From the NCBI RefSeq assembly GCF_029919115.1, contig NZ_CP123990.1:992001-1056000 (forward strand): a DNA stretch of 64,000 nucleotides, written 5' to 3'. Positions 3 through 9,713 of the stretch are shown here, piece after piece; position 1 is the first letter of the stretch, and each line of letters opens with the position of its first letter. The notes below the pieces were generated by a model. It did no database searches. It was not told the origin of the DNA and was given only the letters and a program-made list of their open reading frames with translations. The stretch comes from Variovorax paradoxus (lineage in GTDB: Bacteria > Pseudomonadota > Gammaproteobacteria > Burkholderiales > Burkholderiaceae_C). The position numbers were made by a program, and so were the translations under genes.

Positions 3-932
3 ACCCAGCTCAAGGCTTGCGAATCGGGGCAGGGGCTGTCGGTGGTGAAGCACGTGAAGGTGTACCGCGACTTCGTCTTCGTGCGCCTCTCCGAGGCCGG
101 CCTCTCATTCGAAGATTACTTCGGCGAGGTGCTCGGCGCCATCGACAACATGGTCGACCGCTCGCCGGAAGGCAAGCTCACCGTCGGCGGCGGCGTGCTG
201 CGCAACATCGTCCATTGCAACTGGAAGATGTACCTCGAGAACATCAACGACACGGTGCATCCGATGTCCACGCACGAGTCGGCCACCAAGGCGGCCGAGG
301 CGCTGTGGGAAGGCCACGCGCCCACCGATCCCAAGCCCATGGCGATGGAGCAGATCCTCCCCTTCGGTTCGGGCTACGAATTCTTCGACAAGATGGGTGG
401 CCGCGTGTTCGCCAACGGGCACAGCGTGCTGGGAGTGAACTTCAGCATTCACTCCAACTACGCGCAGTTGCCTGAGTACGAAGCAGCGATGCAGGCCGCG
501 CACGGCGCCGAGCGCGCGGCCGACATCCTGCAGCGCTCGCCACAGAACTCGGTCCTGTATCCGAGCCTTTCGGTGAAGGGCTCTCCGCAAGCTATTCGTG
601 TGATCCGTCCGTTGGCCGCTGATCGCACGCTGATCGAAGCCTGGAGCTTCCGCGCAGCGGGCGCGCCGGCGCTGCTCTTCGAGCGGGCGATGAGCTACAA
701 CCGGCTCGTTTTCTCGCCGATGTCGGTGGTGGCGCACGACGACGTGCACCTGTTCGAAAGCATCCAGCAGGGGCTGCGCGCCGGCGGAAACGAGTGGGTG
801 AGCCTGCACCGCAACTTCGACGCGGCCGAGCTCGCGCAAGCCACCATCACCACCAACGGCACCAACGAGCTGCTCATGCGCAACCAGTTCCGCGCCTGGG
901 CGAAGGCGATGGCTTCGGAGGTGGCAGCATGA
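3..932 (+). CDS. Rieske non-heme iron ring-hydroxylating dioxygenase, alpha subunit (3' part)
   Basis: The reading frame is open from the left edge, so this is the last 309 residues of a longer protein; the N-terminal Rieske [2Fe-2S] domain lies mostly outside the window. What remains is the catalytic domain. The stretch NWKMYLENINDTVHPMSTHE (about residues 73-92 of the visible part) has the usual Asn, Asp and two-His spacing of the mononuclear iron site. The family adds O2 to an aromatic ring using electrons from a reductase/ferredoxin, not seen here. The stop overlaps the beta-subunit start (ATGA), so the two are translationally coupled. The substrate cannot be read from sequence; the neighbouring CoA ligase and thioesterase suggest an aromatic acid. 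Confidence 0.9.
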   Translation, partial: TQLKACESGQGLSVVKHVKVYRDFVFVRLSEAGLSFEDYFGEVLGAIDNMVDRSPEGKLTVGGGVLRNIVHCNWKMYLENINDTVHPMSTHESATKAAEALWEGHAPTDPKPMAMEQILPFGSGYEFFDKMGGRVFANGHSVLGVNFSIHSNYAQLPEYEAAMQAAHGAERAADILQRSPQNSVLYPSLSVKGSPQAIRVIRPLAADRTLIEAWSFRAAGAPALLFERAMSYNRLVFSPMSVVAHDDVHLFESIQQGLRAGGNEWVSLHRNFDAAELAQATITTNGTNELLMRNQFRAWAKAMASEVAA

Positions 933-1396
933 CCGGCGATCCGCGCGATTTTGTCGCCCATGAGGCCGCATTGCTCGACGAACGGCGCTTCGACGACTGG
1001 CTGGCGCTCTTTGCCGACGACGGCCACTACTGGGTTCCATTGCTTGGCGCCGCGCAGGCCGATCCGTTCTCCCACAACTCGCTGGCCTACGAAGACCGGC
1101 TGCTGCTGCAGCTGCGTGTGGACCGGCTGAAGAATCCGCGCGCCCATTCGCAGCACCCCGCAAGCCACAGCCAGCATGTGCTCCAGCCCTCGCGCATCGA
1201 GAGCGAGACCGGCGACGAGGTGCGTCTTCGCACGCCGTTCCTCTACGTCGAGGCGCGCGGCGAATCCCAGATCTTGCTGAGCGGCACGACCCGCCACCAC
1301 CTGGCGCGGACGCCCTCGGGCTGGCGCATCCGCGAGAAGCGCGTCGACCTGCTCAACGCTGCGCGCGCTCTGCCCGCCATTCAGTTGTTCATCTGA
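929..1396 (+). CDS. Ring-hydroxylating dioxygenase, beta subunit
   Basis: A 155-residue protein of the small SnoaL-like (cone-shaped) beta-subunit family that packs against the alpha subunits of Rieske dioxygenases, mainly as a structural partner. Family features are an early DFVAHEAALLDERRFDDWLALF helix region, a YWVP turn, and a C-terminal WRIREKRVDL strand followed by a hydrophobic tail. I chose the ATG at 929 because it overlaps the alpha stop by 4 bases; the same frame is open further upstream but there it lies inside the alpha gene. Length is normal for the family (about 150-190). Confidence 0.9.
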   Translation: MTGDPRDFVAHEAALLDERRFDDWLALFADDGHYWVPLLGAAQADPFSHNSLAYEDRLLLQLRVDRLKNPRAHSQHPASHSQHVLQPSRIESETGDEVRLRTPFLYVEARGESQILLSGTTRHHLARTPSGWRIREKRVDLLNAARALPAIQLFI

Positions 1397-1435
1397 GTTT
1401 CCGTTCCTTCCATTCTTTCTCACTGGAGCTACGAC

Positions 1436-2599
1436 ATGAAGAGCCTGATGCTGACCTTGACGCGCGGTGCCATCGCCGCGGCGCTGACTGCCTGCGGCGT
1501 TGCGAGCGCGCTTGCGGCCGACCTCAAGGTCGGCCTGAGCGTCTCGCTCTCGGGCCCCAACTCTTCGCTGGGCGTGCCGTATGCGAAGGGCATGCAGGCC
1601 GCGCTGGCCTACAAGCCCGAGATCAATGGCCGCAAGGTGCAGCTCATCGTGCTGGACGACGGCTCGGACCCGACGACCGCCGGGCGCAATGCGCGCAAGC
1701 TCGTCGAAGAAGAGAAGGTCGACGTGCTCATGGGCACGTCGGGCGTGCCGGCCGCCATCGCAATGGCTCAGGTGGGCCGCGATGCGAAGACGCCGATGAT
1801 CGGCCTCACGCCGATCCTGCTCGATCCGAGCGAGAACTCGTGGGTCATGACGGTCGCGCAGCCCACGCAGCTGATGATCGATGCGGTGGTCGAGCGCATG
1901 AAGCGCAACAACGTCAAGACGGTGGGCTACATCGGTTTTACCGACGCCTGGGGCGACCTGGTCTACAACGCGCTCATGAAGGCCGCGCCCGAAGCCGGCA
2001 TCAAGGTGGTGAGCAACGAACGCTACGCGCGCGCCGATGCCTCGGTGACCGGGCAGGTGCTGAAGATCGTCGCGCTGCGGCCCGATGCAGTGATGACCGG
2101 CGGCGCCGGCACGCCGGGCGCATTGCCGTTCCTTGCGCTGCAGGAGCGCGGCTACAAGGGCGGCGTGTACGGGCAGCACGGCCTCATCAACCCCGACTTC
2201 GTGCGCGTGGTCGGTGCCTCCGGACAGAACGCACTGATGCCCACCGGCCCGGTGATCGTCGCCGAGCAGTTGCCCGACAACTACCCCACCAAGAAGATCG
2301 CGACCGATTTCCGCGCGGTGTTCCAGAAGGTGAACAACGCGCCGACCAGCGATGCCTTCTCCGCCTATTCCTTCGACGGCTGGCTGGTGTTTGCAGATGC
2401 CGCCTCGCGGGCCATGAAAAAGGCCGAGCCGGGCACGGCGGAGTTTCGTGTCGCGCTGCGGGATGCCATCTTCAGCACCAAGGAAGTGGTGGGCACGCAC
2501 GGCGTGTACAGCTTCAAGCCCGGCAGCCTCTACGGTGTGGACGAGCGCGCCCGCGTGATCGTCAAGCTCGACAACGGCCAATGGAAGCTCGCCCCCTGA
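1436..2599 (+). CDS. Branched-chain amino acid-type ABC transporter, periplasmic substrate-binding protein (LivK-like)
   Basis: A 387-residue type I periplasmic binding protein (Peripla_BP_6). Residues 1-28 form a signal peptide ending near SALAA, and the mature part opens with the family pattern DLKVGLSVSLSGPNSSLG. It delivers a ligand to the membrane parts encoded just downstream. LivK relatives inside aromatic catabolic clusters usually bind aromatic acids rather than leucine, so the ligand is probably the substrate of the dioxygenase or CoA ligase (inference). It lies 39 bases after the beta subunit and probably shares its transcript. Confidence 0.88.
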   Translation: MKSLMLTLTRGAIAAALTACGVASALAADLKVGLSVSLSGPNSSLGVPYAKGMQAALAYKPEINGRKVQLIVLDDGSDPTTAGRNARKLVEEEKVDVLMGTSGVPAAIAMAQVGRDAKTPMIGLTPILLDPSENSWVMTVAQPTQLMIDAVVERMKRNNVKTVGYIGFTDAWGDLVYNALMKAAPEAGIKVVSNERYARADASVTGQVLKIVALRPDAVMTGGAGTPGALPFLALQERGYKGGVYGQHGLINPDFVRVVGASGQNALMPTGPVIVAEQLPDNYPTKKIATDFRAVFQKVNNAPTSDAFSAYSFDGWLVFADAASRAMKKAEPGTAEFRVALRDAIFSTKEVVGTHGVYSFKPGSLYGVDERARVIVKLDNGQWKLAP

Positions 2600-2668
2600 G
2601 CGGCCCGCTCTTTCGCAAACGACAAGAACGACGAACAAGAAGATGAAAGCAATGCCTGAGGTTTTCCT

Positions 2669-3724
2669 ATGACGTGGGACGTCGCGCTGATTCTCATCAC
2701 CGACGGCCTCGCCAACGGTGCCGTCTATCTGCTGGCCGGGCTCGGGCTGGTGCTGATCTTTTCCGTCACGCGGGTGGTGTTCGTGCCGTTCGGCGACATC
2801 GCAGCCTTTGCCGCACTGTCGCTCGCGGCTTTCGAAACCGGCCGTGTGCCGCCGACCATCGGCATGGTGGCCGTGCTCACGGCGCTGGCGCTGGCAACGG
2901 AAGTCGGAAGCCTGCTGCGGCGCGGCGAAGCCGCTCGCATTCCCAAGGCGGTGCTCATGTGGGGCGTGCTGCCCGCGATTCCGTGTGTGCTTGCCTGGCT
3001 TGCGGCGCGGCCCGGTGTGCCGGTGGCGGTGCATATCGCGGTGGCGGTGCTGCTGGTGGTGCCCATTGCACCGCTGCTCGCACGCGTGGTGTTCCAGCCG
3101 ATTGCCGATGCGTCGGTGCTGGTGCTGCTGATCGTTTCGCTGGCGCTGCACTTCCTGCTCTCGGGCCTGGGCTTGCTGTTCTTCGGCCCTGAAGGCTCGC
3201 GCACCACGCCGCTCACGAGTGCGGTGTTCACCCTGGGCGACGGGTTCACGGTCAGCGGCCAGGTGGTGCTGATGGTGGGCGCGGCCATTGTGCTGAGCGG
3301 GCTGTTCTTCCTGGTGTTCGAGCGCACTGTGGCCGGCAAGGCGCTGCGCGCCACGGCCGTGAACCGGGTGGGTGCGCGGCTGGTCGGCATCCGGCCGGTG
3401 CGCACGGCGCTGCTGGCCTACGGCTGTGCCTCGCTGCTGGCCGGTCTCATCGGTGTGCTGATCGCGCCGGTAACGACCATGTACTACGACTCGGGTTTCA
3501 TCATCGGCTTGAAAGCCTTCGTCGCCGCGATCATCGGCGGGCTCGTGAGCTACCCGATGACGGCCGTGGGCGCACTCGCGGTCGGCGTGGTGGAAAGCTT
3601 CGCATCGTTCTGGAGCGGTGCGCTGAAAGACGTGATCGTGTTCAGCCTGCTCATACCGGTGCTCATGCTGCGCTCCTTCATGGCCGCGCACTCCGAAGAG
3701 GAAGAAGACGAGGTGGACCAATGA
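2669..3724 (+). CDS. ABC transporter permease, LivH-like
   Basis: A 351-residue inner-membrane permease of the LivH/LivM family. It opens with GLANGAVYLLAGLGLVLIFSVTRVV, the characteristic first hydrophobic segments of LivH, and has about eight membrane segments, with an AVNRVGARLVGI cytoplasmic loop that contacts the ATPase. It is longer than E. coli LivH (about 308) because of an insertion near residues 70-130. The C-terminus is very acidic ([10 protein letters not shown]). The stop overlaps the next start (ATGATGA), so translation is coupled to the permease-ATPase fusion. Confidence 0.88.
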   Translation: MTWDVALILITDGLANGAVYLLAGLGLVLIFSVTRVVFVPFGDIAAFAALSLAAFETGRVPPTIGMVAVLTALALATEVGSLLRRGEAARIPKAVLMWGVLPAIPCVLAWLAARPGVPVAVHIAVAVLLVVPIAPLLARVVFQPIADASVLVLLIVSLALHFLLSGLGLLFFGPEGSRTTPLTSAVFTLGDGFTVSGQVVLMVGAAIVLSGLFFLVFERTVAGKALRATAVNRVGARLVGIRPVRTALLAYGCASLLAGLIGVLIAPVTTMYYDSGFIIGLKAFVAAIIGGLVSYPMTAVGALAVGVVESFASFWSGALKDVIVFSLLIPVLMLRSFMAAHSEEEEDEVDQ

Positions 3725-5511
3725 TGAACGGCAACCGCAAACGCATGGGCTGGATCGCCCTCGTGGTCGTCGTGCTGGCGCTGGTGCCGGCGGTGGCGGG
3801 CAGCTTCACGGTTTCGTTGCTCAACGACATCGGCATCGGCGCGCTGGTGGCGCTCGGGCTGGTGCTGCTCACCGGCGTGGGCGGCGCAACCTCTTTCGGT
3901 CAGGCGGCCTTCGTGGGCATTGCGGCCTATGCCACGGCGTGGCTCACGACCACGCAGGGCATGTCGCCATGGATCGGCCTCTTGTTCGCGCTGCTGCTCA
4001 CCGGACTCTCGGCGCTTGCCATCGGCATGCTCACGCTGCGGCTCGGCGGGCACTTCCTGCCGCTGAGCACCATCGCGTGGGGGTTGTCTATCGCAATGCT
4101 GTTCGGCAACGTCGATGCGCTCGGGCGCCACACAGGGCTGTCGAACATTCCGGCGCTGCAAGTCGCGCGCTGGTCGCTGGCCGATCCGCGGTCGATGTAC
4201 TACCTGATCTGGGTGGTGGTCGGGCTGGCGTGCCTGTTCAGCCACAACCTGCTGCAGTCGCGCCCCGGCCGTGCGATTCGCGGGCTGCGCGGCGGCGCCA
4301 CGCTGCTGGCGAGCGTGGGGGCCGATGCATACCGCGTGCGGCTCACGCTCTTTGTCACGGCCGCGCTCTTTGCGGGGCTGGCGGGTTGGCTCTATGCGCA
4401 CATGAACCGCTTCGTGAGCCCGTCGCCCTTCGACGTGCGCGCAAGCATCGAGTACCTGCTGATGGCGGTGGCCGGCGGGCTCGGGCAGCTGGCGGGCGCA
4501 TTGGTGGGAGCGGCCCTGGTGCTGGTGCTGAAGAACGGCCTGCAGGACGTGCTGCCCATGCTCACCCAGCGCGCCGGGCAACTGGAAGCCGTGGCTTTCG
4601 CAACGCTCTTCATCCTGCTGCTGCACTTTGCGCGCGGCGGTCTCATGGGCTTGCTGAGGCGCTGGACGCGCCGCAAGGGCGGCACCCAGGGTTCGTCGCG
4701 CTACGACGCGCCCACGGTCGATCCGCTTCCGCATCGCCAACTGCCCGCGCGCGGCACGCAGGTGCTGTCGGTGAAAGGTGCGGTCAAGCGCTTCGGCGGT
4801 CTGGTGGCGGTGAACGATGTGAGCTTCGAGGTGAACGCGGGAGAAATCATCGGCCTGATCGGACCCAACGGCGCGGGCAAGTCGACGATGTTCAACCTGC
4901 TGACCTGCACGCTGCCGATGAGCGCGGGCCAGGTGCGCTTTCTGGAGCATGACATCGCCGGCATGCCGCAGCGGCAGGTGGCGCGGCTGGGGCTGGCGCG
5001 TACCTTCCAGCACGTGAAGCTGCGGCCGCACATGAGCCTGCTCGACAACGTGGCGCTGGGCGCGCATTCGCGCACGCGCTCGGGTGTCTTGAAGGCCGGC
5101 CTGCGGCTGGACCGCACCGAGGAAAAGCAGATCCTGCAGGAGGCGCAGCGCCAGCTAGACCGCATCGGCCTGGGCGACCGCGCGCACGAGCTCGCAGGCA
5201 GCCTGCCGCTGGGCACGCAGCGCATTCTCGAAATTGCGCGCGCCCTGGCTGCAGACCCGGTGCTGCTGGTGCTCGACGAGCCCGCGGCCGGCCTGCGCCG
5301 CAAGGAAAAGATGGCGCTCGGCGACCTGCTGCGCAAGCTGCGCGAAGAGGGCGTGACCATCCTGATCGTCGAACACGACATGGACTTCGTGATGAAACTG
5401 GTGGACCGGCTGGTGGTGATGAACTTCGGCTCCAAGCTCGTGGAGGGCGTGCCGTCCGCGGTGCGCGCGGACGAGCGTGTGCAGGCGGCTTACCTGGGGA
5501 GCGTTGTATGA
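3721..5511 (+). CDS. Fused LivM-type permease and LivG-type ATPase
   Basis: 596 residues carrying two transporter subunits in one chain. Residues about 1-320 are a LivM permease (conserved [19 protein letters not shown] and [19 protein letters not shown] segments). After a polar linker (about 310-345), residues about 345-596 form a LivG ATPase with Walker [10 protein letters not shown] (about 380), the LivG-style signature region [15 protein letters not shown] (about 493), Walker [12 protein letters not shown] and the switch His in [14 protein letters not shown]. It pairs with the LivH permease upstream and the LivF ATPase downstream. Fusion of LivM and LivG is known in some proteobacterial transporters but is not the E. 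coli arrangement. Confidence 0.9.
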
Positions 5512-5539
5512 GCGCCGCACGGCCGCCCGAAGGCGCGGG

Positions 5540-5553
5540 CCCCCTTCAGGGGG
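5540..5553. repeat. Short inverted repeat between livMG and livF, possible dispersed element
   Basis: CCCCC-TTCA-GGGGG sits inside the 82-base spacer between the two transporter genes, in a context (GCCGCCCGAAGGCGCGGG before it, AAGCCTGGGGGTGACGAA after it) resembling short intergenic GC-rich repeats that I have seen in Comamonadaceae genomes. It could lower expression of the downstream gene or only be a sequence relic. Copy number was not tested. Confidence 0.4.
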
Positions 5554-5593
5554 TACGCGAAGTACATGCAGTGACAAGCCTGGGGGTGACGAA

Positions 5594-6325
5594 ATGAGCG
5601 CGATGCTGGAGATCGGCGACCTGCATGTGTCGTATGGGCAGGTCGAGGCGGTGCGCGGCGTGTCGCTCGACCTGCAGCCCGGGCAGATCATCTCGGTGAT
5701 CGGGCCCAACGGCGCGGGCAAGACCACGCTGCTGGCCGCCGCCATGGGCCTGCTGCCCTGCAAGGGCACGCTGCGCTTCGAGGGCGAAGACCTGCAAGGG
5801 CTCGATGTGGAGGCGCGCGTGGAGCGCGGACTGTGCCTGGTGCCCGAGAAGCGCGAGCTGTTCGGCGAGCTCACCGTGCTGGACAACCTGCAGCTCGGCG
5901 CCTATGCCAAGCGGCTGCGCGGCGATGCAATGAAGAAGCGGCTGCAATCGGTGTACGACCGCTTTCCGCGGCTCGCGGAGCGCCGCGCGCAGCGCGCCGA
6001 CACGCTCTCGGGCGGCGAACGCCAGATGCTGGCGGTGGGCCGCGCCCTGATGTCGGCGCCGCGCCTGCTGATGCTCGACGAGCCCAGCCTCGGCCTGGCA
6101 CCGCTCATCGTGCGGGACATTCTCACCATCGTGCGCAAGCTGCGCGAAGACGGCGTGTCGATCCTGCTGGTGGAGCAGAACGCGCGCGCGGCGCTCGAAA
6201 CCTCGGACCACGGCTACGTGCTCGAAACCGGCGAGATCGCGCTTTCAGGCGCTTCGGCCGAACTGGCGAGCGACCCGCGGGTGCAGGCCACCTATCTTGG
6301 CGGAGGCACGCACGATGACGAGTGA
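5594..6325 (+). CDS. ABC transporter ATPase, LivF-like
   Basis: A 243-residue ATPase, the second nucleotide-binding subunit of the importer. It has Walker [10 protein letters not shown] (about residue 38), the C-loop [15 protein letters not shown], Walker [14 protein letters not shown] and a switch region [10 protein letters not shown] typical of LivF. I start it at the ATG at 5594, giving [20 protein letters not shown], the usual LivF N-terminus; the frame is open further upstream but that part is unlike the family and contains the GC-rich repeat. It overlaps the start of the CoA ligase by 11 bases. Confidence 0.9.
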
Positions 6326-7913
6326 GCCGCGCGCGATGCCTCCGGCGCAGCGCACGCTGCCGGCCATGCTGCAGCGGCAGGCGGCGATGTTCGGTGCGCG
6401 CCCATTGCTGCGCATTGCGGGCTCTCGCTGGTCGCACGCCGATGCGGCAGAAGCAGCGGGCGCTCGCGCCGGCGCACTCGCGCAAGCGGGCATCGAGCGC
6501 GGAGACCGCGTGGCCGTGATGTGCGGCAACCGCATCGAGTTTCTTGAAACCTTTTTCGGTGCCGGTTGGATCGGTGCTTCGACGGTGCCGGTCAACACTG
6601 CCTCGATGGGGCCGCAGATCGAGTACTTCCTTTCACACAGCGAAGCGAAGCTGCTGGTCATCGAAGCCGGGTTTCTGAGCCGCCTGCAGGCGGCCGACCT
6701 CGGCCGAACGAAGCTCAAGGAAATCTGGATCGTCGGCGAGGCTGCTGAAGGCGATTCCGCCGCGTGGCTGGCACCGGCCAGCGTGCGCGTGCTGGCGTAT
6801 CCCTCCGGCGGCCCGGCTGCTGCGCCGGCCGACGTGCAGCCCGGCGATCCGCTCGCCATTCTGTATACCTCTGGCACCACGGGTCCCGCCAAGGGCGTGG
6901 TCTGCCCGCATGCGCAGTATTTCTGGTGGGGCGTGAACAGCGCCGAGGTACTCGGCGTGGCGGCGGACGACGTGTTGTGCACCACGCTGCCGCTCTTTCA
7001 CATCAACGCGCTCAACACCTTTGCGCAAGCCGCGCTCACGGGCTCCGAGGTCGTCTTTGAAACACGCTTCTCGGCCTCGGGCTTCTGGCCTTCGATGCAT
7101 GCGAACGGCGCCACCGTGGTCTACCTGCTGGGTGCCATGGTGCCGATACTGCTCGCGCAATCCGTGGGCGAGGGCGAGCGCAACCATCGCGTACGCATCG
7201 GCCTCGGCCCCGGCGTGCCCGACGCCGCGGGCAAGGCGTTTTTCGAGCGCACCGGCGTGCGCCTGCTCGAAGGCTATGGCTCCACCGAAACCAACTTTGC
7301 CATTGCCACCGCGCCTGATTCGCCACGCGGCGGCGTCATGGGGTGGCTGCGGCCCGGCTTCCAGGCGCGCGTTGCCGACGAAAGCGATGCGGAGCTGCCC
7401 GCCGGAGAGGCTGGCGAGTTGCTGCTGCGCGCGGACGAACCTCATGCCTTCGCAAGCGGCTACTTCAACATGCCAGAGAAGACGGTCGAGGCCTGGCGCA
7501 ATCTGTGGTTTCACACCGGCGACCGCGTGGTGCGCGATGCCGACGGAGCCTTCAGGTTTGTCGACCGCATCAAGGATGCGATTCGCAGGCGCGGCGAAAA
7601 CATTTCTTCGTTCGAAGTCGAGCAGGTGCTGTTGAGCCATCGCAGCGTTGCGTCTTGCGCGGTGTACCCGGTGCGTTCGGAACTGGCGGAAGACGAAGTC
7701 ATGGCCGCGCTGGTGCCGCGCGAGGGCGAGCGCATCGATCCGCTGGAACTGATGAGCTTCTGCGAGAGCCGCCTGCCGTATTTTGCGGTGCCTCGCTATG
7801 TCGATGTATTGCCCGACTTGCCGCGCACCGAGAACGGCAAGGTTCAGAAGTTCAAGCTGCGCGAGCGCGGTGTCGGCGCGCAGACCTGGGACCGTGCGCT
7901 GAACAAGCGATAA
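6315..7913 (+). CDS. AMP-forming acyl-CoA / aryl-CoA ligase
   Basis: A 532-residue adenylate-forming enzyme (ANL superfamily) that activates a carboxylic acid with ATP and couples it to CoA. Visible motifs are the phosphate loop [12 protein letters not shown] (about 190), EGYGSTETN (about 320), the [20 protein letters not shown] hinge (about 400), and the C-terminal catalytic lysine in [12 protein letters not shown] (about 510). It resembles CaiC-like and aryl-acid ligases. The start at 6315 follows a GGAGG at 6301; an earlier in-frame start would overlap livF more deeply. In this cluster it probably activates an aromatic acid or a ring-oxidised intermediate. Confidence 0.87.
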
Positions 7914-7924
7914 GCCACATTCGC

Positions 7925-7942
7925 TAGAATAGTTCAGAACTA
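7925..7942 (+). promoter_or_regulatory. Putative promoter -10 and palindromic operator for the SDR-MarR-thioesterase unit
   Basis: The hexamer TAGAAT (7925-7930) resembles a sigma-70 -10 box and runs straight into the 13-bp perfect palindrome TAGTTCAGAACTA (7930-7942), which ends 12 bases before the SDR start. A repressor on this site would block transcription start. The MarR gene is second in the unit, so negative autoregulation is the natural reading (inference). No strong -35 box is visible, which would suit a promoter that needs help or is weak. Confidence 0.55.
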
Positions 7943-7954
7943 AACATTTCAGGT

Positions 7955-8731
7955 ATGCATGCAAATCCATTGAGCGGCCGCCACGCCCTGGTGACTGGCG
8001 CCGCACGCGGCATCGGAGCCGAAATCGCCCGCACCCTTGCTGCTGAAGGCGCCACGCTGACCTTGCTTGGGCGCGACATCGATTCACTTCAACGCGTGGC
8101 GGTCTCGCTCCCAGGCCAGGGCCACGGGGTTGTGGCCGCCGACGTGGCCGATGCGCAAGCGGTGCAGGCCGCCTTCGCGCAGGCACGCGCCGGGCGAGGG
8201 CCCATCGCAATCCTGGTGAACAACGCCGGCGCCGCCGAAAGCGCGCCTTTTCTCAAGACCTCGGTCGAGCTGTGGCAGCGCATGCTGTCGGTCAACCTGA
8301 CGGGCAGCTTCTTGTGCGCGAAGGCGGCGCTGCCCGACATGCTCGAGGCGGGCTGGGGCCGCATCGTCAACATTGCCAGCACCGCTGGCCAGAAGGGCTA
8401 TGCCTACGTGGCCGCCTACACGGCAGCCAAGCATGGCGTCATCGGCCTCACGCGCTCGCTTGCGCTCGAAGTGGCCCGCAAGGGCGTGACGGTGAACGCG
8501 GTATGCCCCGGCTACACCGACACCGACATCCTGCGCGCGAGCGTTGCCAACGTGGTCGGCAAGACCGGCCGCAGCGAAGCCGATGCGCTGGCCGAGTTTT
8601 CCAACGTCAATCCGCAGCGGCGCATCGTGCAGCCCGCCGAAGTGGCCGATGCGGTGCGCTGGCTGTGCGGCGAAGGTGCGGCCTCCGTGACCGGGCAGTC
8701 GGTATCGGTTTCGGGCGGGGAGGTCATGTAA
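7955..8731 (+). CDS. Short-chain dehydrogenase/reductase (SDR)
   Basis: 258 residues with the classical SDR layout: NAD(P)-binding TGAARGIG (about 14), NNAG (about 88), catalytic Ser in NIASTAG and the YTAAK pair (about 153-157). The closest-looking relatives are FabG-like and 3-hydroxyacyl-CoA/diol dehydrogenases. In the pathway it could oxidise a cis-diol made by the dioxygenase or a hydroxyacyl-CoA; sequence does not decide. Its stop shares one base with the MarR start (TAATG), so SDR, MarR and thioesterase form one tight unit. Confidence 0.87.
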
Positions 8732-9258
8732 TGCGCAACGATGCCTCGCACGCCGCGCTCAGCGACGCCGAAGAACTCGGCCACGAGGCACGCGCTGGCC
8801 GTGAAGACCACGCCATGCTCAAGCTGTGGCTGCGCATGCTCGCAAGCACCACCCAGATCGAGGCCGAAATTCGGCGCCGGCTGCGCGAGCGCTTCGGCAT
8901 TTCGCTGGCACGCTTCGACTACATGGCGCAGCTCTATCGCTACGAAGAGGGCCTGAAGATGCGCGTGCTGTCGCGCTACCTGATGGTGACGGGCGGCAAC
9001 GTTACCGGGCTGACGGACGAGCTCGAGCGCGACGGCGTGGTGGCGCGCGCGCACAGCCCCGACGATCGCCGTTCGTGGATCGTGAGCCTCACGCCCAAGG
9101 GCCGCGCCAGCTTCGAGACCATGGCCAAGGAACACGAGCAATGGATTCTCGAAATGTTCTCGGGTCTCGACATGAAGACCGTGAAGCAGATGCATGCGCA
9201 ACTCGGGCAGCTTCGCGTGCACGTGATGCGCAGCGAGCCCTCGGGCGAGGAGGGCTGA
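8731..9258 (+). CDS. MarR-family transcriptional regulator
   Basis: A 175-residue winged-helix regulator. The DNA-binding part shows SLARFDYMAQLYRYEEGLKMRVLSRYL, then VTGGNVTGLTDELERDGVV and the wing motif SPDDRRSWIVSLTPKG, all standard for MarR. MarR proteins in aromatic-acid clusters are usually repressors released by the acid or its CoA thioester. The palindrome at 7930-7942 is the likely operator. It is co-transcribed with the SDR gene (one-base overlap) and the thioesterase (overlap at 9258). If the cluster degrades auxin, this would correspond to the MarR-type regulators described for Variovorax auxin catabolism (unverified). Confidence 0.9.
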   Translation: MRNDASHAALSDAEELGHEARAGREDHAMLKLWLRMLASTTQIEAEIRRRLRERFGISLARFDYMAQLYRYEEGLKMRVLSRYLMVTGGNVTGLTDELERDGVVARAHSPDDRRSWIVSLTPKGRASFETMAKEHEQWILEMFSGLDMKTVKQMHAQLGQLRVHVMRSEPSGEEG

Positions 9259-9713
9259 TGAGCGCAAGCGAGGCAAACGCGCCCAGCGCCGAGTTCCGCC
9301 GCGCGCGGATGATCCGCTTTTCCGACTGCGATCCCGCGGGCATCGTGTTCTACCCGCAGTATTTCGTCATGCTCAATGGGCTGGTGGAAGACTGGGTGAG
9401 CGAAGGCCTTGGCATCGACTACCACGCGCTCATTTCGGAGCGGCGCATCGGCTTGCCCACCGTGCGGCTCGAAGCCGACTTTCGCGCGGTGAGCCGTATG
9501 GGCGACCAGGTCGCGCTCGGCCTGTCGGTCGAGCGGCTGGGTTCACGCTCGATGTCGCTCGTCTTGCGCTGTTTCGAGCCGGCCGGCGGCGAACTGCGCA
9601 TGCAGGTGAAGCAGGTGCTGGTGACGACTTCGCTCGAGAGCCATCGCGCGGTGGAAATTCCGCAAGACTTGCGCGCGGCCATCCTGCGCATGTCGCCTTC
9701 TTCCGCCGCGTGA
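9258..9713 (+). CDS. 4-hydroxybenzoyl-CoA thioesterase-like hotdog thioesterase
   Basis: 151 residues of the 4HBT hotdog family. The motif FSDCDPAGIVFYPQYF (about residues 22-37) is nearly that of Pseudomonas 4-hydroxybenzoyl-CoA thioesterase and contains its catalytic Asp. It hydrolyses an aryl- or acyl-CoA to the free acid and CoA. Ligase, ring oxygenase and thioesterase in one cluster fit a route in which the ring is modified while held as a CoA thioester and then released, or a CoA-recycling side step. It is the last gene of the cluster; the next gene is convergent 9 bases away. Confidence 0.88.
   Translation: MSASEANAPSAEFRRARMIRFSDCDPAGIVFYPQYFVMLNGLVEDWVSEGLGIDYHALISERRIGLPTVRLEADFRAVSRMGDQVALGLSVERLGSRSMSLVLRCFEPAGGELRMQVKQVLVTTSLESHRAVEIPQDLRAAILRMSPSSAA

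Follow-up and report, generated by a model that had tools for sequence, protein, structure and literature searches.

The distal half of a Variovorax iad (auxin degradation) locus encodes a second IadD-type oxygenase, possibly for a relative of indole-3-acetic acid

Gene content and identity of the locus

We analysed a stretch of 64,000 nucleotides of Variovorax paradoxus (hereafter the window, G000:C1:992001-1056000, where G000:C1 is the single contig of the 5.81-Mb host genome) that opens with ten genes at positions 3-9713, all on the plus strand and with short gaps or overlaps between neighbours. The first two encode the alpha and beta subunits of a Rieske oxygenase, here called D2 and E2, and are followed by genes for a solute-binding protein (SBP), a Liv-type importer, an acyl-CoA ligase (lig2), a short-chain dehydrogenase (SDR), a MarR regulator and a thioesterase (Table 1). 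Judged by sequence and gene order, the Variovorax iad locus published for auxin degradation is split by the window edge, with its distal half inside the window, and D2E2 is a paralogue of IadDE, the oxygenase for indole-3-acetic acid (IAA) encoded in the proximal half. An earlier note, made from the letters of the window alone, had described a tight ten-gene block of these enzyme classes and guessed at an iad-type auxin locus. The block is borne out by Pfam domain calls on the window proteins (NCBIfam models with cut-offs were used alongside), by the common strand and by gene order in related genomes, and the guess was right at the level of the locus.

The D2 gene is truncated by the window edge, its true start being at G000:C1:991613, 388 bases left of position 1. 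Directly left of it lie iadR, iadA to iadJ and the genes of an IadK2-type and an IadK3-type SBP. There is no reductase gene within the window block, and the earlier note had advised looking for one, and for further iad genes, left of the window; iadC-D-E (a reductase with a Rieske pair, G000:C1:980749-983559) were found there, and iadF-G-H-I-J follow in order. The IadR of this genome aligns over its full length with that of V. paradoxus CL14 (7KKI; 326 bits, 3 differences in 158 aligned residues) and retains all seven published IAA contacts (Y15, A18, S28, H32, W45, R46 and V65). Its IadD matches 9O71 and 7YLS with about 1000 bits and its IadK2 matches 7YLT with 769 bits. The iad locus of CL14 (HS33) belongs to the same genus and has iadR, iadA-J, K2 and K3 in the order implied by the text; no difference was seen at the level of the locus, the comparison being one with excerpts of the published text and not with a map. 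IadH fuses a ChsH2-type zinc ribbon/OB-fold to a short-chain dehydrogenase, a combination in keeping with CoA-ester chemistry alongside the thiolase-like IadG. A promoter and terminator scan of L007:3000-17200 gave no promoter-like sites (1.2 expected) and 17 terminator-like sites (8.6 expected).

Table 1 Genes of the iad locus. Plain numbers are window positions; start codons of genes left of the window were picked by us.
Gene or product	Position	Strand	Domains and remarks
iadR	G000:C1:976387-976863	-	
iadA	G000:C1:977023-979215		
iadB	G000:C1:979205-980728		
iadC	G000:C1:980749-981741		reductase
iadD	G000:C1:981758-983071		
iadE	G000:C1:983071-983559		
iadF	G000:C1:983567-985213		ligase; assigned by sequence and place
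iadG	G000:C1:985210-986382		thiolase-like
iadH	G000:C1:986379-987632		ChsH2/SDR fusion
iadI	G000:C1:987649-988461		cyclase-type hydrolase
iadJ	G000:C1:988458-989183		SDR
IadK2-type SBP	G000:C1:989230-990396		
IadK3-type SBP	G000:C1:990446-991591		directly before D2 (from 991613)
D2, Rieske oxygenase alpha, IadD paralogue	3..932	+	PF00355/PF00848; 439 aa
E2, Rieske oxygenase beta, IadE paralogue	929..1396	+	PF00866; 155 aa
SBP, third of the iad locus	1436..2599	+	PF13458
LivH-type permease	2669..3724	+	PF02653
LivM permease-LivG ATPase fusion	3721..5511	+	PF02653 + PF00005 in one frame; 596 aa
LivF-type ATPase	5594..6325	+	PF00005; top NCBIfam model LivF, under cut-off
lig2, AMP-forming acyl-CoA ligase	6315..7913	+	PF00501; NF004808 848.8 bits (cut-off 722)
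SDR	7955..8731	+	PF00106
MarR regulator, IadR2-like	8728..9258	+	PF12802/PF01047
4HBT-type acyl-CoA thioesterase (4HBT_2)	9258..9713	+	PF13279

Relation of D2E2 to IadDE and its distribution

The best match of D2 among solved structures is IadD (9O71/7YLS, 618/606 bits), and the next solved match has 149 bits. D2 is 55.8% identical to the IadD of its own genome and E2 48.7% identical to the IadE; the nearest named relatives of D2 are from Variovorax strains IB41 and DXTD-1 (98%). A midpoint-rooted maximum-likelihood tree of 67 sequences drawn from 178, five of them on long branches, divides 39 D from 28 D2 rows with a split of 100/100 and places the window alpha subunit in the D2 clade. The 178 sequences (86 D and 92 D2, our own two included) were labelled D or D2 by the higher bit score to our own D or D2, after 16 fragments shorter than 380 aa had been dropped. 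That D2 is iadD itself was rejected on the identity, on the separate clade and on the presence of the true iadD, whose end lies 8.9 kb to the left of the window. The alignment to iad proteins proposed in the earlier note has a divided outcome: the alpha subunit is closest to IadD and not to a benzoate, anthranilate or salicylate enzyme, but it is a paralogue and not IadD. D2-type genes reach beyond Variovorax into other families of the order, so that the split between D and D2 must be old, and a recent duplication confined to Variovorax was rejected for the same reason.

D2 was found in 90 of 101 Variovorax genomes (best E <= 2.1e-226) and D in 89 (E <= 1e-220, counted by its own search); 88 have both and 10 have neither. 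D alone was found in G066, and D2 alone in G075, which is 58% complete, and in G083, in which the iadD frame is broken. The locus of this last, single-contig genome (L105, G083:C1:7036400-7050000) has iadD in two pieces in different frames and an intact D2. In wider scans an IadD-type match (E <= 1e-120) was obtained in 34 of 349 genomes of the family, 10 of 349 of the order and 7 of 398 of the phylum, our own genome being counted each time; the best four candidates per genome were scored, and any statement that a genome has one IadD-type oxygenase rests on these four.

Gene order was compared in 80 named loci, the best of 284, of which 68 have full 10-kb flanks. Of the 68, 62 have exactly the order alpha-beta-SBP-livH-livMG-livF-ligase, so that the block is no chance juxtaposition. 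The genes iadG-H-I-J are in the same locus in all 68, iadD is in 65, and in 64 the gene immediately preceding D2 encodes a K3-type SBP. The LivM-LivG fusion is covered to at least 95% in 76 of 78 matches from the 80 loci. The tail genes, counted at an identity of at least 55%, are found less completely (SDR 57/68, MarR 55/68, thioesterase 48/68, all three in order 41/68), and some flanks may end before these genes. Many Variovorax loci, e.g. L014, L016, L018, L025 and L028, have an additional SDR gene (36-41% identical to the window SDR) between the ligase and the SDR, which is missing here. The D2 gene is under purifying selection (omega 0.03-0.17 in 6 comparisons).

The metal ligands and IAA-pocket residues of IadD have been described (PMC10374108; this and the other papers are cited from excerpts of their text). 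D2 retains all metal ligands (C85, H87, C106, H109, H216, H221 and D377), a feature it shares with the IadDE structures 7YLS, 8H2T and 9O71, and it keeps 7 of the 9 published pocket residues, among them N210, F251, K322, R329 and Y362. It does not carry the full published set, the two changes being L211I and H311Q. All 86 D sequences have H at position 311 and all 92 D2 sequences have Q there, and position 211 is L or Q in D and I or V in D2. The side chain of His311 in IadD shifts to accommodate IAA (PMC10374108). The same genome encodes a third Rieske alpha subunit with 43% identity to D, which keeps L211 and H311 but has N251 and H322; HcaE, when aligned, has H at 311 and L at 322. As H311 is present in both, Q311 looks derived. 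F251 and K322 are common to D and D2 and not found in the third alpha subunit, so within this limited set of sequences the two residues together characterise the D/D2 pair. Overall, 19 of 437 columns share no residue between the D and D2 clades; all are at 198-421 and none is in the Rieske domain (44-160). Such confinement to the catalytic part is expected if the substrate has changed and the electron donor has not. The third alpha subunit lies at L126 (G000:C1:2255000-2260000), and its nearest NCBIfam model is BenA, under the cut-off.

Ligase, importer, regulator and modularity of the locus

The ligase lig2 is probably the equivalent of IadF, because a ligase of its type fills the place of iadF in 7 of 45 loci (L069, L108, L114, L117, L119, L120 and L123), and no iadF-type ligase was found there. 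The ligases in that place are 57-60% identical to lig2 and 34-38% to IadF. The 45 loci comprise the whole series L088-L125 (38 loci) and 7 from the 80 named ones.

The best solved match of the window SBP is IadK2 (7YLT, 542 bits), and it is 66.7% identical to the IadK2 of its own genome. It has F168, W172, R199, F308 and Y311 in common with IadK2 but V104 and P126 as in IadK3, where IadK2 has S104 and N126; swapping IadK2 residues for IadK3 ones impaired IAA binding (PMC10374108). The combination at positions 104/126/172 is S or A/N/W in 72 of 74 K2 proteins, V/P/L in 72 of 73 K3 proteins and V or A/P/W in 77 of 77 proteins of the window type. From these three pocket signatures, a single importer seems to serve several ligands. 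Position 125 is Thr in the published IadK2 (PMC10374108) and Ala in ours.

The window MarR lends no support of this kind to the guess of the earlier note. It is 29.2% identical to our own IadR and keeps none of the seven IAA contacts in a pairwise alignment; among solved structures it matches 3BOQ best (86 bits), IadR having 43 bits. On the missing contacts it was rejected as the IAA sensor. IadR2, the second MarR of published iad loci, does not bind IAA (PMC9613470); the window MarR is likewise the second MarR of an iad locus and lacks the IAA contacts. Its likeness to IadR2 (Variovorax MarR_50) is one of position and missing contacts. Homologues stand beside iad genes in L098-L100 (another family, 40-41%), L107, L112 and L114. 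In L107 the SDR, MarR and thioesterase genes directly follow the iad core, and its 19.9 kb contain neither D2 nor Liv genes, so this trio can travel independently. The three probably make up an accessory unit of their own, found also where an iad locus lacks D2.

In many iad loci, L107 and L114-L120 among them, the stretch retrieved contains no D2, which marks D2 as an addition to the core. The opposite arrangement also exists. In L088 (G275) and L095 (G280) a D2-type oxygenase lies beside iadF-G-H-I without D, and these genomes have no other IadD-type match at E <= 1e-120 among the four candidates scored. L103 (G055:C6) and L104 (G025:C2) are extra loci of two Variovorax genomes that also hold the full iad locus; they contain a D2-type oxygenase, iadF-G-H-I (iadI twice) and iadA-B, and have no iadJ match. 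Counting L109, iadJ is absent from all five loci with D2 and no D, and it was not found genome-wide (E <= 1e-50) in G275, G280 and G1132. L089 was left out of this group, since D is about 24 kb away on the same contig. Among 22 D-only loci, iadJ is matched in 16, with an identity as low as 46-50% in two of them, and unmatched in six (L091, L092, L097 and L111-L113, the last three from stretches that may end early); L090, L110 and L125 were left out of this count because the same genome or stretch also has D2. In L109 (G1132:C4:340000-359900) the D2-type oxygenase is accompanied by a DLH/SnoaL protein, a lig2-type ligase (50%) and a divergent reductase with 35% identity to IadC, and the locus possibly belongs to another pathway.

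Candidate substrates and role of D2E2

Published mutants bear on whether D2E2 takes part in IAA degradation. The genes iadC-K2 alone, without D2E2, restored conversion of IAA to anthranilate in a CL14 mutant deleted for the locus (PMC12633357), so D2E2 is not needed for IAA. V. paradoxus CL14 no longer degraded IAA when only iadDE had been deleted (PMC9613470). This strain presumably carries D2E2, as do 88 of 89 Variovorax genomes with D, and D2E2, if present there, does not do the job of IadDE. The earlier note had proposed deleting the window alpha subunit and testing growth on IAA; with iadDE intact, deletion of D2 should leave this growth unaffected, and the test would mislead.

The reading that we favour, with a confidence somewhat better than even, is that D2E2 and lig2 serve as a second front end through which a close relative of IAA, likeliest 2-oxindole-3-acetic acid (oxIAA), enters the shared iad pathway. 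In the proximal half, as published, IAA is oxidised by IadC-IadDE, and the product is dehydrogenated by IadJ, joined to CoA by IadF and trimmed to anthranilate by IadG-H-I. D2E2 would oxygenate an IAA relative that retains the acetate side chain, most likely drawing its electrons from IadC, and its product would pass to the shared IadG-H-I steps. Thus D2E2 and lig2 would duplicate oxygenation and CoA activation, the remaining steps would be common, and the Liv-type importer would probably be common to the three SBPs. A second front end with a shared back end is suggested because D2-type oxygenases adjoin iadF-G-H-I without D in L088, L095, L103 and L104. OxIAA is a candidate because IadK3, whose gene immediately precedes D2, showed weak binding of oxIAA and no binding of the further auxins offered, which included 4-chloro-IAA (4-Cl-IAA), indole-3-propionate (IPA), indole-3-butyrate (IBA), naphthaleneacetic acid (NAA) and 2,4-dichlorophenoxyacetic acid (2,4-D) (PMC10374108). 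The likeliest reaction would be C3 hydroxylation of oxIAA to dioxindole-3-acetic acid. IadJ has been assigned to the dehydrogenation after IadCDE on the route from IAA to dioxindole-3-acetic acid (PMC12633357); as C3 hydroxylation of oxIAA would give this compound directly, IadJ would be unnecessary. One paper places oxIAA outside the main route (PMC12633357), and a side entry would then be useful.

Several points weigh against this. N210, R329 and Y362 are also present in the third Rieske alpha subunit, so conservation of the pocket is mostly non-specific. The absence of iadJ from D2-only loci is suggestive only, since iadJ does not track D cleanly: IadJ is missing from the D-type genomes G384, G129 and G354 as well, and in the split locus of G996 iadI and iadJ are beside D2 (L124, on G996:C7, with D2, transporter, ligase, iadI and iadJ), D-E-F-G-H being about 100 kb away (L125, with iadA-B-D-E-F-G-H). 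Both observations weaken the case for using the loss of iadJ to mark D2. The neighbours of D2 in L109 are only weakly iadG/H-like (34-37%) and L089 has no other iad match; given these two, D2-type enzymes may serve another pathway. The binding of oxIAA by IadK3 was weak, and the K3-type gene precedes D2 in most loci (64/68) but not all. The papers also conflict. OxIAA was the IadCDE product in vitro according to PMC10374108; in PMC12633357 the product was another C10H9NO3 compound, and oxIAA was a minor peak that was not depleted in the locus-deletion mutant. The excerpts of neither paper report consumption of oxIAA via D2E2.

D2E2 could instead be a second iad front end for a different indole acid or auxin, for instance 4-Cl-IAA, 5-hydroxy-IAA (5-HIAA), IPA or IBA, which we consider rather unlikely. 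The pocket argument is identical to that for oxIAA. IadCDE did not turn over IBA or IPA and so leaves room for a partner enzyme, and the third SBP (1436-2599) is not among the two tested (both PMC10374108). However, according to the same source IadK3 bound no tested auxin analogue, and 4-Cl-IAA and 5-HIAA are already substrates of IadCDE. The near-identical pocket and the joint conservation with IadDE would fit if D2E2 were a second, redundant enzyme for IAA that works in different circumstances, but the loss of IAA degradation upon deletion of iadDE alone, and H311Q with 18 other clade-separating columns, which argue for a different task, make it improbable. An ordinary benzoate, anthranilate or salicylate ring-hydroxylating system with no auxin link fits the enzyme classes and the nearest NCBIfam models, yet was rejected as very improbable indeed, since D2 scores far under the cut-offs of HcaE (169.9 against 830), BenA (165.8 against 781) and the AntA-type large subunit (151.1 against 672), its AndAc score is likewise far too low, IadD is by far the nearest solved relative, and iad genes accompany D2 throughout the full-flank loci.

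Returning to oxIAA as the substrate of D2E2, we tentatively put forward a stronger form, which we regard as possible but do not expect on balance. As an oxIAA 3-hydroxylase, D2E2 may represent a second functional class among the IadD-type oxygenases, and the iad locus may be a two-entry auxin sink. IAA and the main IAA breakdown product of the plant would be taken up and consumed with separate SBPs, oxygenases and ligases, leading to dioxindole-3-acetyl-CoA, and some bacteria (e.g. those with L088 and L095) would have the oxIAA entry only.

The iad locus itself is known; the distal-half oxygenase is a sister group of IadD, to which the open-access iad literature, in the excerpts cited, assigns no function. 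There is also a practical consequence, as surveys can count D2E2 as IadDE. One survey used a step of more than 40% identity and a stricter step of more than 50% for both subunits (PMC11630574); at the identities given above, D2 and E2 both pass the former, and at the latter D2 passes and E2 fails. The iad locus explains the protection of roots from auxin overload by Variovorax, and the published enzyme work, in those excerpts, centres on the proximal half (iadC-K3). That the distal half, with its own oxygenase, is almost equally conserved suggests that a second compound of the auxin family is eaten. If this compound is oxIAA, the bacteria would recycle the oxidised auxin of the plant, and the weak binding of oxIAA by IadK3 would make sense.

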